Source: Caloramator sp. (lineage in GTDB: Bacteria > Bacillota > Clostridia > Clostridiales > Caloramatoraceae). From it: a stretch of 34,854 nucleotides of DNA. The stretch is from NCBI GenBank assembly GCA_026416875.1, contig JAOAEI010000009.1:1-34854 (forward strand). Reading direction: 5' to 3'. The position numbers and the translations under genes were made by a program. How positions within the stretch are numbered: the first letter of the stretch is position 1; every line of letters begins with the position of its first letter. Below are positions 15,045 through 33,184 of the stretch, in pieces. Under the pieces are notes generated by a model. The model ran no database searches and had not been told where the DNA came from. It saw only the letters and a program-made list of their open reading frames with translations.

Positions 15045-15413
15045 ATGGAAGCAATTCTTTTAATAAGTCATGGAAGTAGGAGCAAGGAAGCTAGTAAAAC
15101 TTTTTTAAAAGTAGCTGAGGAATTTGAAGGATTTATGAATATAAAGGTTTTTACGGCTTTTATGGAGTTTAATGAGCCTAATATAAAAAAAGCTATTGAT
15201 GATATTTATAGGCAAGGGATTAAAAAAATAATAGTAATACCTTATTTTCTATATACAGGTGTTCATATTAAAGAGGATATACCAAATGAATTAAAGGAAG
15301 CAAGTAATGAATATGAAGATTTAATTATAGAATTTACAAAACCAATTGAATTTCATCCTTTAATTTTAGAAATCTTAAAGGAACGTTTTAATGGAGAAAG
15401 GAAGATTATATGA
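15045..15413 (+). CDS. cbiX: Short-form sirohydrochlorin cobaltochelatase CbiX
   Basis: This 122-residue protein is the short CbiX form, known from archaea and some bacteria, that works as a homodimer to insert Co2+ into sirohydrochlorin. His9 in LLISHGSR and His74 in LYTGVHIKEDIP match the two metal-binding histidines of characterised short CbiX proteins. It begins the ring-building block of the operon, and its stop overlaps the start of cbiC. A sirohydrochlorin ferro- or nickel-chelatase role is possible for this family, but the context favours cobalt. No separate cbiK is seen. Confidence 0.9.
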   Translation: MEAILLISHGSRSKEASKTFLKVAEEFEGFMNIKVFTAFMEFNEPNIKKAIDDIYRQGIKKIIVIPYFLYTGVHIKEDIPNELKEASNEYEDLIIEFTKPIEFHPLILEILKERFNGERKII

Positions 15414-18197: not shown

Positions 18198-18851
18198 TTG
18201 AAAAAATTTTATGGAATAGGAATAGGTCCAGGAGATCCAGAGCTCTTAACATTAAAGGCTCTAAGAATAATAAAGGAAAGCGATATAATATTTGTCCCCT
18301 CTAGCAAAGGAAAGAGTTTAGCAAAGGATATAGTGAAGGAATATTTAGCTGGAAAACGAGTAGTTGAACTTAATTTTCCTATGGGTAAAGAAAATAAAAT
18401 TAATTATAAACAAGCAGCAGAGGTTATATATAAAGCTTTTAATGAAGTTGATGTAGCATGTTTTTTAACGTTGGGTGATCCTTTAACATATAGCACCTTC
18501 ATTTATCTTTATCAAGAAATTAGTAAATACGGAATTTATGTAGAAATAATTCCAGGAATAACATCATATAATGCTGCCTTTTCAAGGATTAAAATGCCTT
18601 TTGCAGTTAAAAATGAATCCATCTTAATAACTGATAAAAATATAGATTTAGATGAGATAAATTATATAGATAAAATAATTTTTCTAAAAGCAAATAACAA
18701 AAAGGATATTATAAAAAAATTAAATCAAAGGGGATTTAAAAGTTATTATGTTAAAAGATGCTTTTTAGAAGGTGAAGAGGTTTTAATGGATGAGGAAAAG
18801 ATAAAAAAGGATGAGGACTATTTATCTATATTGATATCGATTAAGGAGTGA
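18198..18851 (+). CDS. cbiL: Cobalt-precorrin-2 C20-methyltransferase CbiL
   Basis: This 217-residue SAM tetrapyrrole methylase methylates C-20 of cobalt-precorrin-2 (cobalt-factor II). GIGIGPGDPELLTLKALR at the N-terminus, LTLGDPLTYSTF (about 93-104) and EIIPGITSYNAA show the methylase fold. The PSSKGKSLA insertion near 36-44 is typical of CbiL/CobI. The TTG start at 18198 is preceded by AGGTGAT, the same arrangement as at cobU. Confidence 0.92.
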   Translation: MKKFYGIGIGPGDPELLTLKALRIIKESDIIFVPSSKGKSLAKDIVKEYLAGKRVVELNFPMGKENKINYKQAAEVIYKAFNEVDVACFLTLGDPLTYSTFIYLYQEISKYGIYVEIIPGITSYNAAFSRIKMPFAVKNESILITDKNIDLDEINYIDKIIFLKANNKKDIIKKLNQRGFKSYYVKRCFLEGEEVLMDEEKIKKDEDYLSILISIKE

Positions 18852-21276: not shown

Positions 21277-22040
21277 TTTGGGTTATTGCAGGCACCTATG
21301 ATGCTAAAAAGTTTTTAGAAAGTATTCATGGCAAGGTAAATTATATAGCAACTGTTGCAACAGAGGAAGGGAAAAGGGAATTTTTTAAATTTAATGTAAT
21401 TAAGGCAAGGTTTAGTTATGAAGAAATGAAGAATTTTATAACGAAGAATAATATAGAGCTTATAGTTGATTTGTCTCATCCCTTTGCAAAGGAAGTTTCT
21501 TTAAATTCTAAAAATGCGGCAAGGGAATTAAAAATTAAATATATAAGATATTTAAGAAAGGAAACTGAACTTGATGGATGTATTGTTTTTAAAGATTTTA
21601 ACGAATGTGCCGAATATTTAAAGGATAAAGAGGGTAACGTTGTTTTTACAATCGGTTCAAACAATATTCAGGTTTTTGAAAAGGTAAAAAACAATAGAAG
21701 ATTTATTTATAGAATTTTACCTTCAGTAGACAGTATAAAAAGGTGCATATCTTTAGGTATCCCATTAAGTGATTTAGTAGCTATCAAAGGGGTATTTTCC
21801 GAGGAATTTAATGCTGCGTTTTTTAAAGAATTTAATGCTAAGTATGTGGTTATGAAGGATAGTGGAAGGGAAGGCGGAATTATACAAAAATTAAATGCAT
21901 GCAAAAAAATAGGAGCAATTCCTTTGGTTGTTTTAAGACCTGTGGAGGAAGGGATATATAGCATGGATGAAATACTTAAGTATGTTTTAAAAAGTGGTGA
22001 TGAAATTGTTTGGAGTAATAGGGATAAGTCCGACTATTGA
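21273..22040 (+). CDS. cbiJ: Cobalt-precorrin-6A reductase CbiJ
   Basis: This 255-residue NAD(P)H-dependent reductase reduces the macrocycle of cobalt-precorrin-6A. VIAGTYDAKKFLES at the N-terminus, LIVDLSHPFAKEVSLNS (about 65-81) and IKYIRYLRKE are typical of CbiJ/CobK. VMKDSGREGG near 200 is the C-terminal signature. The start is TTG at 21273, overlapping the cbiH stop, with AAGGGGG upstream. The last 41 nt overlap the start of hemA. Confidence 0.94.
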   Translation: MIWVIAGTYDAKKFLESIHGKVNYIATVATEEGKREFFKFNVIKARFSYEEMKNFITKNNIELIVDLSHPFAKEVSLNSKNAARELKIKYIRYLRKETELDGCIVFKDFNECAEYLKDKEGNVVFTIGSNNIQVFEKVKNNRRFIYRILPSVDSIKRCISLGIPLSDLVAIKGVFSEEFNAAFFKEFNAKYVVMKDSGREGGIIQKLNACKKIGAIPLVVLRPVEEGIYSMDEILKYVLKSGDEIVWSNRDKSDY

Positions 22041-23184
22041 TATAAAACTTAGGGAAAAATTATCAATAGTTGAAAAAAGAATTCCCCAAAAATTAGAGAT
22101 GTTGAAGGAATTTTGTGATGAGGTTGTTATTCTTAGCACCTGTAATAGAACTGAGGTTTATTTTTATAATAAAAATCATAATCTAGATGAAATGTTTAAG
22201 GTTTTAGGGTGGCAAGATTATAAGGATAATTTAATTTATTTAAGGGATTATGATGCTATTAAACATATATTTAAGGTTGTCTGTGGTTTTGATTCTTTGA
22301 TAATTGGAGAGGAGCAGATTTTAGGACAAGTAAAAAGAGCATATGAAATAGCAAAGGAAAATAAAACGTGTAAGAGAAATTTATCAAGGCTTTTTCTAAG
22401 GGCTATTTCTTGTGGTAAAGACTTTAGAAGAAGAACTAAATTATATATGTATCCTGTATCATCAGCATCTATTGTAGCTAACGAAGTTAAAAATAGGGGA
22501 ATTAAAAAGGTTTTAATACTTGGGTTTGGAGAGATAGGCTTTTTAACTTTTAAATATTTGCTATCCAAAGATATTGAAAAAATTATTGTAGCAGTAAGGG
22601 ATAAAAGTAAAGTTACCAATATGGAAAAAAAGGCAGTTTTTATAGAATTTAAAGATTGGAGAAGCTATGTCGAAGATGTTGAGTGTATAATCTCTGCAAC
22701 TTCAGCTCCACATCCTGTTATTAAGAAAGAGGATATTAATAAAGAAATGCTCATTTTTGATCTTGCAGTTCCAAGGGATGTGGAGGAGGATTTGAAATTA
22801 AAGGATGGTATCGTAGTTTATGATATAGATGATATATCTAAAATGAATGAAAATAATGTTAATTTGAGATATAAGATTATGCAGCGATATAGTTTTATCA
22901 TAGACAAGTATATAGAAGAATTTTTAAGGTGGGAAAAGATATCTGAAATCATCCCTTTAATTGAAAGGGTGCAGGGTGTAAGTTATAAAAATTATAAAGT
23001 AAGGCTGGACAAGTTTATTAAAAAGCATAGAAATAAGGATATAGACTTTGAAATGGCTGAATTTTTATTTAAAAGCGTTTCAGATTATTTTGCCCACAGG
23101 ATTATAAAGGCTTTAAAGGAAGAATATTTAGAGGGCAGGGGAGATGAATGTATAAGGATAATAGAAAAAATAATAAAGGAATAA
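22000..23184 (+). CDS. hemA: Glutamyl-tRNA reductase HemA
   Basis: This roughly 394-residue enzyme reduces glutamyl-tRNA(Glu) with NADPH to glutamate-1-semialdehyde, the first committed step of tetrapyrrole synthesis by the C5 route. The catalytic Cys48 sits in LSTCNRTEVYFY, SLIIGEEQILGQVK follows, and the NADPH-binding GFGEIG loop is near 172-177. A C-terminal dimerisation helix ends the protein. Three possible starts cluster in a GTGGTGATG run; the ATG at 22000 is chosen, and a TTG at 22006 is possible. It overlaps cbiJ by 41 nt and the next gene by 37 nt. Its position places ALA supply under the B12 operon. Confidence 0.94.
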   Translation: MKLFGVIGISPTIDIKLREKLSIVEKRIPQKLEMLKEFCDEVVILSTCNRTEVYFYNKNHNLDEMFKVLGWQDYKDNLIYLRDYDAIKHIFKVVCGFDSLIIGEEQILGQVKRAYEIAKENKTCKRNLSRLFLRAISCGKDFRRRTKLYMYPVSSASIVANEVKNRGIKKVLILGFGEIGFLTFKYLLSKDIEKIIVAVRDKSKVTNMEKKAVFIEFKDWRSYVEDVECIISATSAPHPVIKKEDINKEMLIFDLAVPRDVEEDLKLKDGIVVYDIDDISKMNENNVNLRYKIMQRYSFIIDKYIEEFLRWEKISEIIPLIERVQGVSYKNYKVRLDKFIKKHRNKDIDFEMAEFLFKSVSDYFAHRIIKALKEEYLEGRGDECIRIIEKIIKE

Positions 23185-23786
23185 GATATTTTGGAGTTAG
23201 CTTAATCCCACAAAAAATAAGGATAGGTATAATAGGTGGTGGTAGGGCAGGTCTTATTAAAACTAAATCCTTTTTGAAAAAGGGAGCTAAAGTTTATGTT
23301 CTTTCGAAGGAGTTTTTAAATGAATTTTATAGTTTAAAGGGAGATAATTTGCATTTGATAAGGGGAGAATATACATCTAATTTTATTTTAGACAAGCATA
23401 TTGTAGTTATAGCTTTAGATGGATCAATCAAGGAAAATATCATAAGGGATTGTGAACAAAATAGCAAGCTATATATCAGTTGTAGCAATTTTTTAAATGG
23501 GAATATGGTATCACCGGTTAATGTAGGGAGTAAAAATATATCTTTAAGTTTAAACACTAACTTAGGGAATCCTAAAGCAGCAGTTTTTTTAGCTCAAAAG
23601 GTTAAAAAACTTCTAGAGGAATATGATGATTTCATTGAATATACAAGCAATTTGAGGACACAATTAAATGGAAGAATAAAAGCAGATTTGATGGATTTTG
23701 TAAATAGCGATGATTTTTATTATTTTTACAAAAAAGGCTATTCAGAGGTTGTATTAAAGTTGTTTTTGGAGGGTAAATATGATTAG
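23148..23786 (+). CDS. Divergent precorrin-2 dehydrogenase / siroheme synthase N-domain homologue (SirC/Met8-like)
   Basis: The 212-residue protein follows the CysG N-domain/SirC/Met8 plan. A short lead-in RYFGVSLIPQK precedes a Rossmann NAD-binding IGIIGGGRAG (26-35) and the strand GAKVYVLSKEF, and a helical C-terminal half follows. The expected reaction is NAD-dependent oxidation of precorrin-2 to sirohydrochlorin, needed before CbiX inserts cobalt. In an ungapped comparison with E. coli CysG as I recall it, catalytic Asp104 aligns with Ser113 here and Ser128 with Thr137. Chelatase and perhaps dehydrogenase activity are therefore in doubt. No later in-frame start exists before the Rossmann domain, so ATG 23148 stands despite the overlap with hemA. 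It sits between hemA and hemC, a usual clostridial place for this family. Confidence 0.75.
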   Translation: MYKDNRKNNKGIRYFGVSLIPQKIRIGIIGGGRAGLIKTKSFLKKGAKVYVLSKEFLNEFYSLKGDNLHLIRGEYTSNFILDKHIVVIALDGSIKENIIRDCEQNSKLYISCSNFLNGNMVSPVNVGSKNISLSLNTNLGNPKAAVFLAQKVKKLLEEYDDFIEYTSNLRTQLNGRIKADLMDFVNSDDFYYFYKKGYSEVVLKLFLEGKYD

Positions 23787-24642
23787 GGTTGCAACTAGAA
23801 AAAGCGCTCTTGCAGAAAAACAGGCGGATATAATAATAGAAATAATAAGAGAAAGATTAGGTTTAGAATGTATAAAAAAATTTTATACGACTAAAGGAGA
23901 TAAAATTTTAGATGTATCATTAGAAAAAATTGGAGGGAAGGGGCTTTTCGTTAAGGAAATAGAAATTGCGCTTTTGAAAAAAGAATCTGATATAGCGATT
24001 CATAGTTTAAAGGATGTTCCAACTGAACTTGATGAGCCTTTCGAAATATCTGCAGTTCCTGTAAGGGAGGATGCTAGGGATGCCTTTATTTCTTTAAATG
24101 GTTTGACATTTCTAGAGCAAAGAAAAGGTGCAAGGATTGGCACAAGTAGTATCAGAAGGGCAAAACAGCTTTTAGTATTAAGAGAAGACATAGAAATAGT
24201 TCCTATAAGGGGAAATGTTAATACAAGGATTGAAAAAATAGAAAAAGAAAATTTAGACGGAATTGTTCTTGCTGCTGCTGGGTTGAAAAGATTGGGAATA
24301 GATGCTATTATAACAGAATATTTTGACATAGAAAAAATGGTTCCTGCCTGTGGTCAAGGAGCCCTTTGCATTGAAACTTTAAAGAATAGTGAAATTGCGG
24401 ATATAATGAAGGTTTTAAATAACGAAGATATTAGAATATGCGTTGAAGCAGAAAGGAATATTTTAAAACTATTAAATGGAGGATGCCATAGCCTAGTAGC
24501 TGCTCATGCAAGGACTGAGAGGAATTATATTTATATTGTTGGAGTAAATGAAACAGGAGGAAAAATAAAAAAGGCGGATATCGAAGGCAAAAAAGAAAGG
24601 TTTTTAGAACTTTCGAGTGAACTTGCTAAAAAACTTTACTGA
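23779..24642 (+). CDS. hemC: Hydroxymethylbilane synthase (porphobilinogen deaminase) HemC
   Basis: This 287-residue enzyme polymerises four porphobilinogens to hydroxymethylbilane. RVATRKSALAEKQA at the N-terminus, the active-site HSLKDVPTEL (75-84), GTSSIRRAKQ (121-130) and RGNVNTRI (144-151) are all present. Cys236 in NGGCHS is the attachment site of the dipyrromethane cofactor. The ATG at 23779 overlaps the previous gene by 8 nt, and the stop is 11 nt before the next start. Confidence 0.96.
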   Translation: MIRVATRKSALAEKQADIIIEIIRERLGLECIKKFYTTKGDKILDVSLEKIGGKGLFVKEIEIALLKKESDIAIHSLKDVPTELDEPFEISAVPVREDARDAFISLNGLTFLEQRKGARIGTSSIRRAKQLLVLREDIEIVPIRGNVNTRIEKIEKENLDGIVLAAAGLKRLGIDAIITEYFDIEKMVPACGQGALCIETLKNSEIADIMKVLNNEDIRICVEAERNILKLLNGGCHSLVAAHARTERNYIYIVGVNETGGKIKKADIEGKKERFLELSSELAKKLY

Positions 24643-24653
24643 TGGAGGAGAAT

Positions 24654-26120
24654 ATGGGCAAGGTATATTTAATAGGTGTTGGACCCTATGATGAAGGGTT
24701 AATAACCCTTAAAGCATTAAAGGCTTTAGAAAAATGCCATGTTGTTCTATACGACAGGCTTGTGAATGAAAATTTATTAAATTTTCTAAGGGAGGATTGT
24801 AAGATATTTTTTTGTGGTAAGGAAAGCGGCTGCCATTATAAAACACAAGAGGAAATAAACGATATGCTTGTAAAATTTGCCAAAGAGGGATATACGGTAG
24901 GAAGGATAAAGGGAGGAGACCCTTATGTATTTGGAAGGGGCGGAGAAGAGGCTTTAAGACTTAAGGAAGAAAATATTGAATTTGAAGTTATTCCAGGAAT
25001 AACTTCTGCAATAGCTGTTTTAAATTATGCTGGAATACCGGTAACTCATAGGGGAATATCCCAAAGTTTTCATGTTTTTACTGGCAATTCTGCAAAGGCT
25101 TTAACATATGATTGGAGGGTAATAGCAAAGCTTAATGGAACAATTATATTTTTGATGGGGCTTGAAAACATAGAATTTATTGTAGAAAACCTTTTAAAAA
25201 ATGGAATTGAACCTACAAGAGAATGTGCTGTTATTTCAAAGGGAACTTCAGCAAGACAACGGGTGATAGTATCAAGGGTTTCAGATATTGTTGAGAAGGT
25301 AAAGAGTGAAAAAATATATTCGCCTGCCTTAATTGTCATTGGTGAAGTTATTAATTTAAGGGAAAAGTTAAATTGGTTTGAAAGTAAACCTTTGTTTGGG
25401 AAAAGGGTTTGTATAACAAGACCAAAAGGACAAAGTCTTGAATTTAAGGAAAAACTTTTGGAGCTTGGAGCAGAGGTTGTAGAAACATATATTTTAAAAA
25501 TAAAACCTCTTGAAGAAAATTTAATAAAAAATTTAGATGATTTACATAGGGCTGATTATCTTTTGTTTACCAGTGCAAATGCGGTAAATATATTTTTTGA
25601 TTGCTTGATTAAGTTAAGGTATGATATCAGAAAAATAAAAGCGGTTTTTGGCTGTATTGGAGAAAAGACTGAAAAGGAACTTGTCCAAAGAGGGATTGTT
25701 CCAGAAATTGTTCCTGAACAATTTGTAGCTGAAGCTTTATATGACAAATTAATAGGACGAATAAAACAAAATGATTTAGTAATAATACCTCGTTCGAAAA
25801 ATGCAAGACCTTTTTTAAAGGAAGCTCTAGAGAAAAAGTGCAATTTAATTGAGATTCCTATATATGAAGTTGAAGAATTTTTTTCTCAAGATATTCTTTT
25901 GGAGGATATAGATTATTTTACCTTTACAAGCCCATCTACTGTTAAGGCTTTTATTAAGAATTTTGGAAAGGATTGTTTGATGAGTAAGAAGGTAGTTGCT
26001 ATAGGGCCAATAACTTCTAATGAGCTTTTAAGGAATGGGATTTCAAATTGTGTAGCACAAAAATATACCATAGATGGGATAATAGAAAAAATTCTTAAGC
26101 TGGAGGGATACGATGTTTAA
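24654..26120 (+). CDS. cobA-hemD: Fused uroporphyrinogen-III C-methyltransferase / uroporphyrinogen-III synthase (CobA-HemD)
   Basis: This is a 488-residue fusion. Residues about 1-240 are the SAM methyltransferase that methylates uroporphyrinogen III at C-2 and C-7 to precorrin-2, with [26 protein letters not shown] and [23 protein letters not shown]. Residues about 245-488 are uroporphyrinogen-III synthase, with [18 protein letters not shown] and [12 protein letters not shown]. The fused product channels hydroxymethylbilane toward corrin or siroheme. The ATG at 24654 with GGAGGAG at 24645-24650 is preferred over the ATG at 24642, which has no clear ribosome binding site. The first methylase loop (GVGPYDEG) departs from the usual GAGPGDPE form. 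Confidence 0.95.
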
Positions 26121-28528: not shown

Positions 28529-28846
28529 ATGGAAGAATTGGAAGGTATTATAAAAAACATAATCCATATAGATAAAAACGCTGTTGAGATGCGGGAAAGA
28601 TTTAAAAATGAAATTGAAAATAAAAAAAGACAGATAGAGGAGGAGATTGAAAGACTGAGAAGGGAACTTTTAGATGAAAGGTTAAGCCAAATCACAAAGG
28701 AAGAGGAAGAAATTCTAAATTTGGCAAAAAAGAAGGCAGAAGAATTAGTAACTGAAGCAGAAGAAACGGGGATTGAATTAGAAAAACGCTATTATAATAA
28801 AAAAGAAGATTTGCTAAATTCAGCCTTTAATGAATTGTTTAATTAG
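28529..28846 (+). CDS. V/A-type ATPase peripheral stalk subunit G/H
   Basis: The 105-residue, highly charged protein is almost entirely a predicted coiled coil rich in Glu, Lys and Arg (about 15-95), with no membrane span. This is the form of the stalk subunit called NtpF in Enterococcus, G in Thermus and AhaH in archaea. It pairs with subunit E to hold the catalytic head to subunit I. It is the first gene of the ATPase operon, 8 nt before subunit C. Low-complexity coiled coils align weakly, so the identity leans on position and size. Confidence 0.8.
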   Translation: MEELEGIIKNIIHIDKNAVEMRERFKNEIENKKRQIEEEIERLRRELLDERLSQITKEEEEILNLAKKKAEELVTEAEETGIELEKRYYNKKEDLLNSAFNELFN

Positions 28847-28854
28847 GTGATATT

Positions 28855-29901
28855 ATGGATAAGAATGCTACTTATGCTGCAGTTTCAGCAAAGGTTCATG
28901 CTATGATGGGGGAACTTTTGACGGAGGAGGATTACAAAAATATATTAAACTTAAGAAATCCTTCAGAAATTGCTAACTACCTTAAAGAAAGAACATCATA
29001 TAAAAAGGTATTTGAAGGTTTTAATATTAATGAACTCCACAGGGAACAGATAGAAATCGTCTTAAAAAAACACTTGATAGGTTATATTGATAAACTTATC
29101 CATTATTTTCATGGAGACATTAGAAATTTTATAAAATGCTTTTACATAAAATATGAGATATTTGACCTTAAGAATATAGCAAGAACTATTCATGTTGAAA
29201 AAAATTATGATGAGGTTAGAGAAAGCTTAATATTTGTAGGTAAATATAGATTTATAGATGTAGAAAAAATAATTAAGGCTAAAAAAGTTTCTGAGCTTAT
29301 TGAGGCTTTAGATGGGACGATTTATTACCCTTATGTAAAAAACTTAATAGATGGAAATGAGAGGGAAAATCTATTTAGGTTTGAGATGTCCCTTGATAGG
29401 GCATATTTTAATATACTTAAAGATAGTGCTAAAAAGCTTAGTAAAGCTGATAAAAGGGCCTTTAATGAGATATACGGAAGTTTGGCTGATCTTTTAAATT
29501 TGAAGTGGATATATAGGAGCAGGAAGTTTTTTAATTTAACGCCTGAAGAAATTTTTAACTATACAATAGATTTTGGCAATAAATTCAATTATGAAAGGAT
29601 TAAAGGTTTCTGCTACACGAAGGATATAGATGAGTTTTTATTAAAGGCAAAAAGCACTCCATATGAATTTTTATTTAAAGGAGACGAAAAGCAGGATATT
29701 TACATGGAAAGGCGAATAAACAGGTTTATGTATTATAAGATAAAAAAGATTTTATACTCAAGAAATTTAAATCTTTCAATAGTTCTTGCCTTTTTAGAAC
29801 TGAAGGAATTTGAGATATTTGATATTATCTCCATGTTAGAATGTGTAAGGTATGCCTTGAGTTTTGATGAGGCAAAGACTTACCTTATAAGAAATATTTA
29901 G
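28855..29901 (+). CDS. ntpC: V/A-type ATPase subunit C (AC39/d-like)
   Basis: The 348-residue soluble, mostly helical protein begins TYAAVSAKVHAMMGELLTEEDY, typical of the AC39/V-ATPase C family. It also has a FYIKYEIFDLKNIARTIH segment near 93-110, a conserved region of this family. It forms the socket joining the central rotor stalk to the membrane c ring. Its ATG is preceded by AGGTGAT. Its place before subunit I differs from the Enterococcus and Thermus orders, where it follows E. Confidence 0.9.
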   Translation: MDKNATYAAVSAKVHAMMGELLTEEDYKNILNLRNPSEIANYLKERTSYKKVFEGFNINELHREQIEIVLKKHLIGYIDKLIHYFHGDIRNFIKCFYIKYEIFDLKNIARTIHVEKNYDEVRESLIFVGKYRFIDVEKIIKAKKVSELIEALDGTIYYPYVKNLIDGNERENLFRFEMSLDRAYFNILKDSAKKLSKADKRAFNEIYGSLADLLNLKWIYRSRKFFNLTPEEIFNYTIDFGNKFNYERIKGFCYTKDIDEFLLKAKSTPYEFLFKGDEKQDIYMERRINRFMYYKIKKILYSRNLNLSIVLAFLELKEFEIFDIISMLECVRYALSFDEAKTYLIRNI

Positions 29902-29911
29902 GGGTGGGAAA

Positions 29912-31876
29912 ATGGCAGTAGCTCAAATGGAGATGATCAATATAATTGGTCATCTTGATTATTTAGACGAGGTCTGCAAAAGAATAGTCTTATCGGAATC
30001 CATCCACATGCTAAATGCAATAAATGAAATCAATGAAAACAATTTTCCAATAATGAATGTGGAAGATATAGATGCTTTAGTAAATATTAATTACATAAGG
30101 CCGTATAGTATTAAAAAAGATTATAAAGATATTGAGAAAAAATTTAATTCGATAGTTAATATTTTTAGTGCGAAGAAAAAGATAAGGCTTGATCATTTTA
30201 AAGAAGAATATAAGTTTTTGGAAGAGGAAGAATTTATAAATAACCTTTATGAAATGATAAAAGGAAAATCTGATGAATTTGAAAGCCTAAAAAGGGAAGA
30301 AGCAGAACTTGATCATTTAACAACTTATTTGATCCATTTAAAGGATTTAAATTTTAAGATAAATGACGTATTAAATATGGAATTTATTGATTTTAAGATA
30401 GGAAAAATAAACAAATATGACCTTCAAAAAGTAAAGAAAAACTATGAAAATATTCCAGGCATAGTTTTAAAAATATATCAAAATCCAGAATATTCATTTA
30501 TTTTAATTTTTTATCCAAAGGCCGTTGAAAATGAAATGATAAAGATATTAAACTCAATAAATTTTGAAGAGTTTAAGATAAAGTTTAATTTTGAAGGAAC
30601 TCCAAAGGATTGGCTTGCAGAAATAGAAAAAAGAAAGCAGGAGATAGAAAAAAGAATAAATGAGCTTACTGCTGAAATATCAGAGATTAGAGGATCTAAT
30701 TTAGATAGGATTGAGAAATTTTATTCAAGGCTTGTTATGGAAAATAAGATAGAAGAGATTAAACAAAACATTGCTGTAACTAATGAATTTTTTTACCTTT
30801 CTGGATGGATTCCTTCTGTGTTTAAAAGAAGAGTTAAAAGGAACTTAGAAGATTTAGAGGATAAGCTTATTATAATATATAAACCCATGAAGGAAATAAG
30901 GGAGGGGCTTGCACCTCCGACATATTTAAGAAATGGTTATCTTTTAAGGCCATTTGAAGCCATAGTTAAACTTTATGGGATTCCATCATATAATGAGCTT
31001 GATCCAACATCCTTTGTTGGGATAAGCTATATGCTTTTGTTTGGTGCGATGTTTGGAGATGTTGGCCAGGGAGTTGTTTTGTTTTTGATTGGTGAGTTTT
31101 TAAATAGAAGAAAAAGAAGGCCTAATCTTGGTGGAGTTTTGGCACGGCTTGGAATAAGCTCAACGTTTTTTGGCTTTATATATGGAAGCATATTTGGGTT
31201 TGAAGATGTTCTTAAAACATATGTAGTTAAACCTATGATTGAGATAGAGAAAATGCTGATTTATGCTATTGCCTTTGGGGTAATTTTACTCTCGGTGGGT
31301 TTTGTCTACAACCTTATAAATTGCTTTAGAAATAAAGACATTGAGGAAGGCTTATTTAGTAGAAATGGAGTTGCAGGATTAGCTTTTTATTGGCTTTTGC
31401 TTTACTACATCGTTGTAAAGGTTGAAAATATAAGTCCAATAATCTCAAGCGGTGCAATACTTTTTCTTTTGATTTTCAATCTTCTTTTAATCTTCTTTAA
31501 AGAACCTCTAACTAACTTAATTAAGGGAGAAAAAAGACTCTACAGGCAGTCAGCATCGGATTACTACATTGAGGAAGGATTTGGTATTTTTGAAACTTTA
31601 CTTAGCATTCTATCTAATACATTATCCTTTATAAGGGTTGGGGCCTTTGCAATAAACCATGTTGGACTATTTATAGCCTTTGAAACTCTCGCCGAAATGA
31701 TTAGAAATGGAGTTGCAAGTGCCTTAATGCTTGTTTTAGGAAATTTAGTAATTATAGGGCTTGAAGGCCTTATAGTATTTATTCAAGGCCTAAGGCTTGA
31801 ATACTACGAGCTTTTCAGCAAATTCTTTAAAGGAAATGGATACGAATACACACCGATAAGTATAAGGGGGTATTAA
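29912..31876 (+). CDS. ntpI: V/A-type ATPase membrane subunit I (a-type)
   Basis: This 654-residue stator subunit has two halves. The N-terminal half (about 1-340) is soluble, with coiled-coil stretches near 75-140 and 235-270, and binds the peripheral stalks. The C-terminal half has about seven or eight membrane helices, starting at the FVGISYMLLFGAMFGDVGQG region. Arg575 in SFIRVGAFAINH is the essential Arg that faces the rotor carboxylate. The stop lies 1 nt before the K subunit start. Confidence 0.95.
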   Translation: MAVAQMEMINIIGHLDYLDEVCKRIVLSESIHMLNAINEINENNFPIMNVEDIDALVNINYIRPYSIKKDYKDIEKKFNSIVNIFSAKKKIRLDHFKEEYKFLEEEEFINNLYEMIKGKSDEFESLKREEAELDHLTTYLIHLKDLNFKINDVLNMEFIDFKIGKINKYDLQKVKKNYENIPGIVLKIYQNPEYSFILIFYPKAVENEMIKILNSINFEEFKIKFNFEGTPKDWLAEIEKRKQEIEKRINELTAEISEIRGSNLDRIEKFYSRLVMENKIEEIKQNIAVTNEFFYLSGWIPSVFKRRVKRNLEDLEDKLIIIYKPMKEIREGLAPPTYLRNGYLLRPFEAIVKLYGIPSYNELDPTSFVGISYMLLFGAMFGDVGQGVVLFLIGEFLNRRKRRPNLGGVLARLGISSTFFGFIYGSIFGFEDVLKTYVVKPMIEIEKMLIYAIAFGVILLSVGFVYNLINCFRNKDIEEGLFSRNGVAGLAFYWLLLYYIVVKVENISPIISSGAILFLLIFNLLLIFFKEPLTNLIKGEKRLYRQSASDYYIEEGFGIFETLLSILSNTLSFIRVGAFAINHVGLFIAFETLAEMIRNGVASALMLVLGNLVIIGLEGLIVFIQGLRLEYYELFSKFFKGNGYEYTPISIRGY

Positions 31877-31877
31877 A

Positions 31878-32294
31878 ATGTTTATATTTGTTATATTAGC
31901 AACATTGGTAGTTATATTTACACTTACAAAGGGTGTTTTAGCTCTAAAGGGTAACATGAAAAAGGATGAGTTTAAAAATCATCTAAAGTTAAATGTATCA
32001 TCACTTGTTGCTATTTTAACTGCCTTTATAATAATGGCAATTCCTCAGGTTGCCCATGCTGCAGCTGAAGGAAACGGAGCGGCAGGGTTAGGATTTATTG
32101 CAGCAGGACTTAGCACAGGACTTGCAGCGATAGGTGCAGGATATGCTGTTGGAGCCGTAGGTTCATCTGCCCTTGGGGCCGTTTCGGAGGACCCTAAAAT
32201 ACTTGGTAAAACTTTGATTTTTGTTGGCCTTGCAGAAGGTATTGCTATATATGGGCTTATAATCTCAATAATGATATTAGGAAGATTAAGGTGA
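31878..32294 (+). CDS. ntpK: V/A-type ATPase rotor proteolipid subunit K
   Basis: This 138-residue membrane protein is the ion-carrying rotor subunit. The c-type hairpin occupies about 68-138: a Gly/Ala-rich helix, a polar SEDPK loop (103-107), and a second helix with the ion-carrying Glu120 in GLAEGIAIYG. Ahead of it are a hydrophobic segment (1-23), a charged stretch, and a second hydrophobic segment (41-60) ending AHAAAE, which could be a membrane span or a cleaved leader. In an alignment to a Na+-type F-ATPase c subunit, Ala87, Gly121 and Ile122 take the place of Na+ ligands, so H+ is the more likely ion. This is inference. Confidence 0.92.
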   Translation: MFIFVILATLVVIFTLTKGVLALKGNMKKDEFKNHLKLNVSSLVAILTAFIIMAIPQVAHAAAEGNGAAGLGFIAAGLSTGLAAIGAGYAVGAVGSSALGAVSEDPKILGKTLIFVGLAEGIAIYGLIISIMILGRLR

Positions 32295-32298
32295 TAGG

Positions 32299-32607
32299 AT
32301 GAAGATATTTTTAATTTCTGACAGCCATGATACTTTAGTTGGCATGAGACTTGCTGGAATAAAGGGTGTTTTAGTTTCTTCAAAGGAGGAGGCCGAAGCA
32401 GAGCTAAAAAAGATAATTAAGGATAAGGAGATTGGAATAATAGTTTTAACTGAGAGATTAGCTTCAAAGCTAAGACATACTATAAACGAGATAAAAGTTA
32501 ATCAGGAACTGCCGCTTATAATTGAAATTCCCAACAGGCAAGGCAGCACAAGGAATGATGATTACCTTGTTAAATATATTAAAGAGTCCGTTGGGATAAA
32601 AATCTGA
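32299..32607 (+). CDS. ntpG: V/A-type ATPase subunit F
   Basis: This 102-residue soluble protein of the central stalk has a Rossmann-like pattern: FLISDSHDTLVGMRLAGIKG at the N-terminus, IGIIVLTERLASKL in the middle, and PLIIEIPNRQGS near 71-82, all typical of V-ATPase F (NtpG in Enterococcus). It binds subunit D in the rotor. It follows K by 4 nt and precedes E. Confidence 0.93.
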   Translation: MKIFLISDSHDTLVGMRLAGIKGVLVSSKEEAEAELKKIIKDKEIGIIVLTERLASKLRHTINEIKVNQELPLIIEIPNRQGSTRNDDYLVKYIKESVGIKI

Positions 32608-32617
32608 GGTGATTTCA

Positions 32618-33184
32618 ATGGTAACCATTGAGGAAAAGATAAGGCTGTTTACAGAGCTTGTTTATCAAAAGATAGAGAAGGAAAATAAAGAGGAAATTGA
32701 AAGGTTTAACGAAAGTTTTAAAAATCTTTTAGAAGAAAAGAAAAGGGAATTTGAAGAGGAATTTAATAGGAAGAGGGAGGAAAGAATAAAAAAGGCCAAT
32801 GAGGAGGCGCAAAGAATCATATCAAAGGCAAGATATGAACAGAAAAGGATGCTTTTTAGAAAAAGGGATGAAATTTTTAATAGGTTTAATGAGGATTTAA
32901 AAGTTAAGTTAGAAGAATTTACCAAAAGCAATCAATATAAAGATTGGCTTTTGAATAGTTTGAAAAAAATTTTTGAAAACAAAAATTATAAGCTAATTTT
33001 AACCCATAAAGATTTTGAACTTTTAAAGCCTTATATAGGTGGATATAAAGTTGAATTTGATGATGGCTTAATTGGAGGATTTATTTTGGAGGATGAAAAT
33101 AGGATGAGAATAGACCATTCCTTGAAAGCGCTGATGGAAGATAAAAAGGAAAAAATTGGCCAGATACTTTTTTCTAATCTTTAG
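32618..33184 (+). CDS. ntpE: V/A-type ATPase peripheral stalk subunit E
   Basis: This 188-residue protein has a long charged N-terminal coiled coil (about 1-100, rich in Glu, Lys and Arg) and a compact C-terminal domain with YKVEFDDGLIGGFILEDE, the usual E-subunit ending that binds the catalytic head. ATG 32618 with GAGGTGAT upstream is preferred over the in-frame GTG at 32609. It forms the peripheral stalk with the G/H subunit encoded first in the operon. Confidence 0.92.
   Translation: MVTIEEKIRLFTELVYQKIEKENKEEIERFNESFKNLLEEKKREFEEEFNRKREERIKKANEEAQRIISKARYEQKRMLFRKRDEIFNRFNEDLKVKLEEFTKSNQYKDWLLNSLKKIFENKNYKLILTHKDFELLKPYIGGYKVEFDDGLIGGFILEDENRMRIDHSLKALMEDKKEKIGQILFSNL

Follow-up and report, generated by a model that had tools for sequence, protein, structure and literature searches.

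A sirC-like gene of the clostridial PRK05562 family that lacks the catalytic aspartate of CysG

The question raised by this locus is what a homologue of the precorrin-2 dehydrogenases does when the aspartate essential for catalysis in CysG is missing. In the anaerobic route to cobalamin, precorrin-2 is oxidised to sirohydrochlorin, which receives cobalt from CbiK or CbiX and is then methylated by CbiL, as outlined in PMC7242693. CysGB and yeast Met8p are bifunctional dehydrogenase/ferrochelatases, and the account in PMC7018833 (Pennington 2020) describes the aspartate at the CysG Asp104 position as conserved in the bifunctional enzymes, its counterpart in Met8p being D144 in that numbering (Asp141 in the earlier, sequence-only reading of this DNA). 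That reading had identified the gene as a dehydrogenase homologue without this residue and had offered rearranged catalysis, a non-catalytic partner role and decay as explanations.

The window, by which we mean the whole stretch of 34,854 nucleotides analysed here, is a contig (JAOAEI010000009.1) of a Caloramator sp. genome of 2.03 Mb in 272 contigs that is 78% complete. The gene lies between hemA and hemC in a cluster with the cobA-hemD fusion, presumably hemB and hemL, and genes for anaerobic cobalamin synthesis. The principal genes are as follows.

15045..15413, + strand: small CbiX, a sirohydrochlorin chelatase of class II that is predicted to act downstream of sirC by inserting cobalt (PF01903, 100.9 bits against a cut-off of 22)
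18198..18851, + strand: cbiL, C20-methyltransferase, which would use cobalt-factor II (TIGR01467, 180.5 against 163.25 bits)
21994..23184, + strand: hemA, glutamyl-tRNA reductase (TIGR01035, 265.3 against 209.55 bits), its 3' end overlapping the start of sirC
23148..23786, + strand: sirC-like gene of the PRK05562 type, 212 aa (NF004045, PF13241, SirC 3dfz and fold matches)
23779..24642, + strand: hemC, presumably porphobilinogen deaminase, named from sequence and position; a homologue follows sirC in 56/59 loci
24642..26120, + strand: cobA-hemD fusion, uroporphyrinogen-III C-methyltransferase (makes precorrin-2) and uroporphyrinogen-III synthase (TIGR01469, 295.1 against 185 bits; NF004593 over residues 253-488, 116.1 bits, under its cut-off of 275)

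Family matches in the window comprise CobA-HemD, small CbiX, CbiL, CbiD, CbiJ, CbiG, CbiB, CbiA and CbiP. His9 and His74 of CbiX, which we take to be its catalytic histidines, are present in each of the 10 CbiX loci aligned. The protein falls short of the thresholds of the NCBIfam nickelochelatase models (91.2 against 120); cobalt is its probable metal given the cobalamin context. Downstream of hemL, positions 28529-33184 look by eye like the beginning of an operon for a V/A-type ATPase.

The sirC-like protein and its family

The open reading frame is intact, from an ATG at 23148 to a stop codon ending at 23786, and by sequence comparison its product is a homologue of CysG-N, Met8 and SirC. 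The protein scores 243.5 bits against NF004045 (PRK05562), over positions 1-215 of the 225 in the profile and above the cut-off of 181, and 48.6 bits against PF13241 (cut-off 22.1), and it remains below the thresholds of the CysG models (NF007922, 26.8 against 400 bits; TIGR01470, cysG_Nterm, 24.8 against 62.3). Among proteins of known structure, the closest in sequence is SirC of Bacillus megaterium (3dfz, phmmer E 4.7e-7). The GGGRAG loop occupies residues 30-35, as had been noticed from the sequence, and every position that is invariant in the family is retained. The protein resembles other members in score, gene neighbourhood and the missing aspartate, and differs from them by ordinary divergence only, with a rare serine at position 111 (1/79; mostly Asp or Asn). 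The gene is most likely an ordinary member of this clostridial dehydrogenase family.

Comparison of folds led to the same relatives. An AlphaFold2 model built from a 28-sequence alignment had a mean pLDDT of 80.2 and a pTM of 0.50; since this pTM is low and residues 118-122 fall below a pLDDT of 50, the S113-N119 loop is not placed in the model. The top Foldseek match was chain B of SirC (3dfz_B, E 2.2e-9), followed by CysG and Met8p entries. With VIA-align the model matched CysG over residues 11-212 (Z 16.0, rmsd 7.1 A), SirC over residues 12-209 (Z 14.3, rmsd 7.2 A) and Met8p over residues 10-161 (Z 12.4, rmsd 5.9 A); the high rmsd values and the low pTM may come from modelling an intertwined dimer as a monomer.

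Against an orthologue of 75% identity in the related genome G003, dN/dS for sirC was 0.16 by both NG86 and YN00, and NG86 gave 0.17 for hemA, 0.12 for hemC and 0.12 for cbiX; the sirC value indicates purifying selection and not decay. A search for a second sirC in the Caloramator genome, within the 78% represented, returned none. The one other PF13241 match (contig C205, 12134-12484, 20.2 bits) was rejected as a candidate, its gene being ThiF (NF006395, 216.3 bits against 159). A genome of the same genus that is 100% complete (G002) contains a single PF13241 match, the PRK05562 orthologue, and no other candidate for a precorrin-2 dehydrogenase.

The Asp104 column and the remainder of the site

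The two parts of the gene that bear on catalysis are the following.

23484..23504, + strand: codons 113-119 (S-N-F-L-N-G-N), equivalent by alignment columns to the CysG D104-A-P-K and SirC SSFS loops
23556..23573, + strand: codons 137-142, with T137 in the CysG S128 column and P142 in that of P133, the tetrapyrrole platform (family alignment; role of P133 from PMC7018833)

We aligned 89 distinct homologues (from 110 sequences) with the corresponding segments of SirC (3dfz) and CysG (1pjq). Eight homologues are of an Asp type, and two Peptoniphilaceae rows (L108 and L109, with Ala and Asn in the Asp104 column) were set apart, leaving 79 PRK05562-like sequences. In this alignment S113 shares its column with CysG Asp104 and a serine of SirC. 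Pairwise phmmer alignment paired SNFL with SirC SSFS ungapped; for CysG it placed one gap in the loop and set Asp104 opposite N114, off by one residue. No acid stands opposite Asp104 under either the family or the phmmer alignment. The assignments of Ser113 and of Thr137 made from the sequence alone were thus borne out, and threonine is also found at the latter position in SirC and in 7 of the 8 Asp-type sequences.

The family alignment likewise upheld the absence of the aspartate beyond this one protein. Column 113 holds Asp in all 8 Asp-type homologues, which come from the same order, and in none of the 79 PRK05562-like sequences, where the residues are S (36), T (18), K (6), E (4), A (4), Y (3), N (2), R (2) and H, I, V and G (1 each). 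As the aspartate is missing throughout the family, S113 is neither a chance substitution nor an isolated lesion. Searches of the literature returned no paper for 'PRK05562', nothing on the activity of any PRK05562 protein, and general papers only for precorrin-2 dehydrogenase with Clostridium; within the literature searched, this family-wide absence may be unrecorded.

The neighbouring acids, also reported missing by the sequence-only reading, are indeed absent from the window protein, which reads S111-C112-S113-N114-F115-L116-N117-G118-N119, although many relatives carry acids here: Asp in 35/79 at column 111, and Asp or Glu in 37/79 at column 114 and 42/79 at column 117. A conserved acid substituting for Asp104 was therefore rejected, these columns being variable and the window protein having Ser111, Asn114 and Asn117.

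Other residues of the site are strictly kept. CysG K27, P133 and R162, described in PMC7018833 as tetrapyrrole contacts or platform, correspond to K38, P142 and R170 by both phmmer and the family alignment, and these three, together with G30 and G32, are each found in 79/79 PRK05562-like sequences. A further tetrapyrrole contact of CysG, to ring A, is Asn101; its equivalent is retained in Bacillus SirC and in 8/8 Asp-type sequences, but all 79 PRK05562-like sequences have another residue here, in 76 cases I, L or V. The pocket therefore differs in this respect from that of SirC. In a PF13241 branch of four loci (L260, L261, L262 and L177, the last in genome G010), the platform proline is replaced by His, both in members that have the Asp and in members that lack it. 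In G010 the sirC-like part is preceded in frame by a cbiJ match within a single open reading frame of 405 aa, which may be a CbiJ-SirC fusion.

Two residues appear from the alignment to be PRK05562-specific. His84 (23397-23399) is present in 79/79 PRK05562 sequences and is another residue in 8/8 Asp-type sequences, and Lys or Arg at 143 (23574-23576), just after the platform proline, is found in 70/79 as against 0/8. A role for His84 as a new catalytic base was disfavoured on the structural model, in which the residue adjoins the start of strand 85-88; in Rossmann folds strands start on the side remote from the cofactor.

Distribution across Clostridia

A survey of 60 genomes (the Caloramator genome and 59 relatives) scored a gene as PRK05562 type when it matched the window protein with an E-value of at most 1e-25, and as Asp type when its PF13241 score exceeded 100 bits. 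The PRK05562 type was found in 36 genomes, the Asp type in 8, a broken gene in 1 and neither in 15, and the two types occurred together in 0/60. The Asp-type gene lies in the same slot, beside hemA and/or hemC, in 8/8 cases, and this shared slot and the lack of co-occurrence make the two types look like alternatives for one job. Gene neighbourhoods were taken from 64 loci of GTDB genomes, of which 59 named loci were counted (L108 to L112 left out; L110, L111 and L112 had no match): 48 have hemA as a neighbour, 56 have hemC and 46 have both, and a few of the 11 loci with non-adjacent hemA are near contig ends. In genome G016, assembled as one contig, sirC (C1:690305-690918) and cbiX (C1:698563-698870) are both in pieces, either because the pathway has been lost or because of sequencing errors.

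A class II chelatase accompanies the PRK05562 type in 35/36 genomes (full-length CbiX in 9 and CbiK in 26; the exception is G056), and CbiX or CbiK accompanies the Asp type in 7/8 (the exception is G048), as against 3/15 of the genomes with neither type. The idea that loss of the aspartate tracks a separate chelatase was thus unsupported as a discriminator, and a link of this kind is not demonstrated because chelatases are common to both types. The three genomes with a chelatase and neither sirC type detected have a strong CbiK match (G020:C320:1488-2258; G021:C2:16107-16877, L124; G037:C9:55629-56399, L122), and there CbiK may serve a different purpose, or the oxidation may proceed by other means.

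A wider sample of the class and phylum comprised 56 loci, giving 52 distinct homologue rows, all of which were kept; a search of the phylum with NF005222 placed 0/149 genomes over the cut-off, and its matches served solely as wider sampling. The Asp104 column holds D in 38/52 of these rows, and the 14 others have S (7), T (2), N (2) and M, H and E (1 each). On a quick tree of 95 rows, computed with the Asp104 column removed, with no bootstrap, and including 31 of the 79 PRK05562 rows, all 31 fall on one side of a branch with SH-aLRT 97, separated from the Asp-type homologues, and Bacillus SirC is placed apart from them. The D/non-D label changes at least 8 times across Clostridia on this tree, with gain and loss indistinguishable, so the aspartate has come or gone repeatedly.

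Proposed function and alternatives

Published biochemistry provides the precedent for interpreting this site. As described in PMC7018833, the substitution D104A abolishes both activities of CysG and D104N lowers both, and the B. megaterium enzyme SirC, a monofunctional dehydrogenase, has at the same position a serine that is dispensable for dehydrogenation (there citing Schubert 2008), its change to Asp not restoring chelation. The earlier premise that the aspartate is needed for dehydrogenation consequently stands for bifunctional CysG and fails for SirC, and rearranged catalysis is unneeded as an explanation. The window protein shares with SirC the fold, size, NAD loop, serine in the Asp104 column, threonine in the Ser128 column and platform proline; it differs in being only 19% identical in the fold alignment and in the lost Asn101 equivalent, which is the main respect in which PRK05562 departs from SirC. 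The resemblance to CysGB and Met8p extends to the fold and, for CysG, to the equivalents of K27, P133 and R162, but the protein lacks both the catalytic Asp and a fused methyltransferase half, and a separate CbiX is encoded in the cluster.

The window protein is very probably a monofunctional NAD-dependent precorrin-2 dehydrogenase with the function of SirC, belonging to the clostridial PRK05562 subfamily and feeding CbiX. Family membership, the kept site residues and the SirC precedent all support the dehydrogenase option raised from the sequence. Precorrin-2 from the neighbouring CobA-HemD would bind on the P142 platform, next to the Rossmann domain, with K38 and, from the other subunit of a predicted dimer, R170 holding it in place. 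NAD+ bound at the GGGRAG loop would take hydride at C15 and yield sirohydrochlorin, and a carboxylate base in the capping loop would be unnecessary, as in Bacillus SirC. The enzyme would lack chelatase activity of its own, and sirohydrochlorin would be handed over to CbiX, where insertion of cobalt would produce cobalt-factor II for CbiL.

Other explanations have to be weighed against this function. That the protein is a bifunctional dehydrogenase/chelatase in which an acid at column 111, 114 or 117 stands in for Asp104 would accord with the frequency of acids in these columns among relatives; we consider it very unlikely, as these acids vary across the family, the window protein carries no acid at any of the three positions, and a dedicated chelatase gene lies in the same cluster. 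A non-catalytic binder of precorrin-2 or sirohydrochlorin, acting as a partner of HemA or CbiX, is a still less probable reading. The adjacency of hemA in most loci and the loss of the CysG aspartate could be taken in its favour, but hemA lies elsewhere in 11/59 loci, SirC works without the aspartate as described in PMC7018833, the NAD-loop glycines and substrate residues are invariant, and the complete genome of the same genus offers no other candidate for the step.

Strict conservation of the substrate site, purifying selection and the absence of a second homologue contradict both the partner role and the suggestion that the gene has decayed and been replaced in function by another, and neither decay nor a non-catalytic role is well supported. 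The incompleteness of the Caloramator genome does mean that a second copy could be missing; nevertheless, the intact reading frame, the low dN/dS, the retention of all invariant family positions and the identity of the only other PF13241 match as ThiF make decay the explanation that we find hardest to credit.

Within the dehydrogenase assignment, we tentatively consider, as possible though rather doubtful, that PRK05562 represents a lineage of precorrin-2 dehydrogenases in its own right, which came to lack the chelatase acid independently of Bacillus SirC and rebuilt its pocket with His84, Lys/Arg143 and no ring-A asparagine. If this were true, the bifunctional site would have been reduced to a dehydrogenase on several occasions, slightly differently each time.

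The missing CysG aspartate is thus not the mark of a dead or odd enzyme, and most likely marks a dehydrogenase-only one. The NCBIfam family NF004045, at present termed 'NAD(P)-dependent oxidoreductase', could reasonably be called precorrin-2 dehydrogenase, and the repeated switches between Asp and non-Asp enzymes in Clostridia provide a natural set for testing the purpose of the acid.
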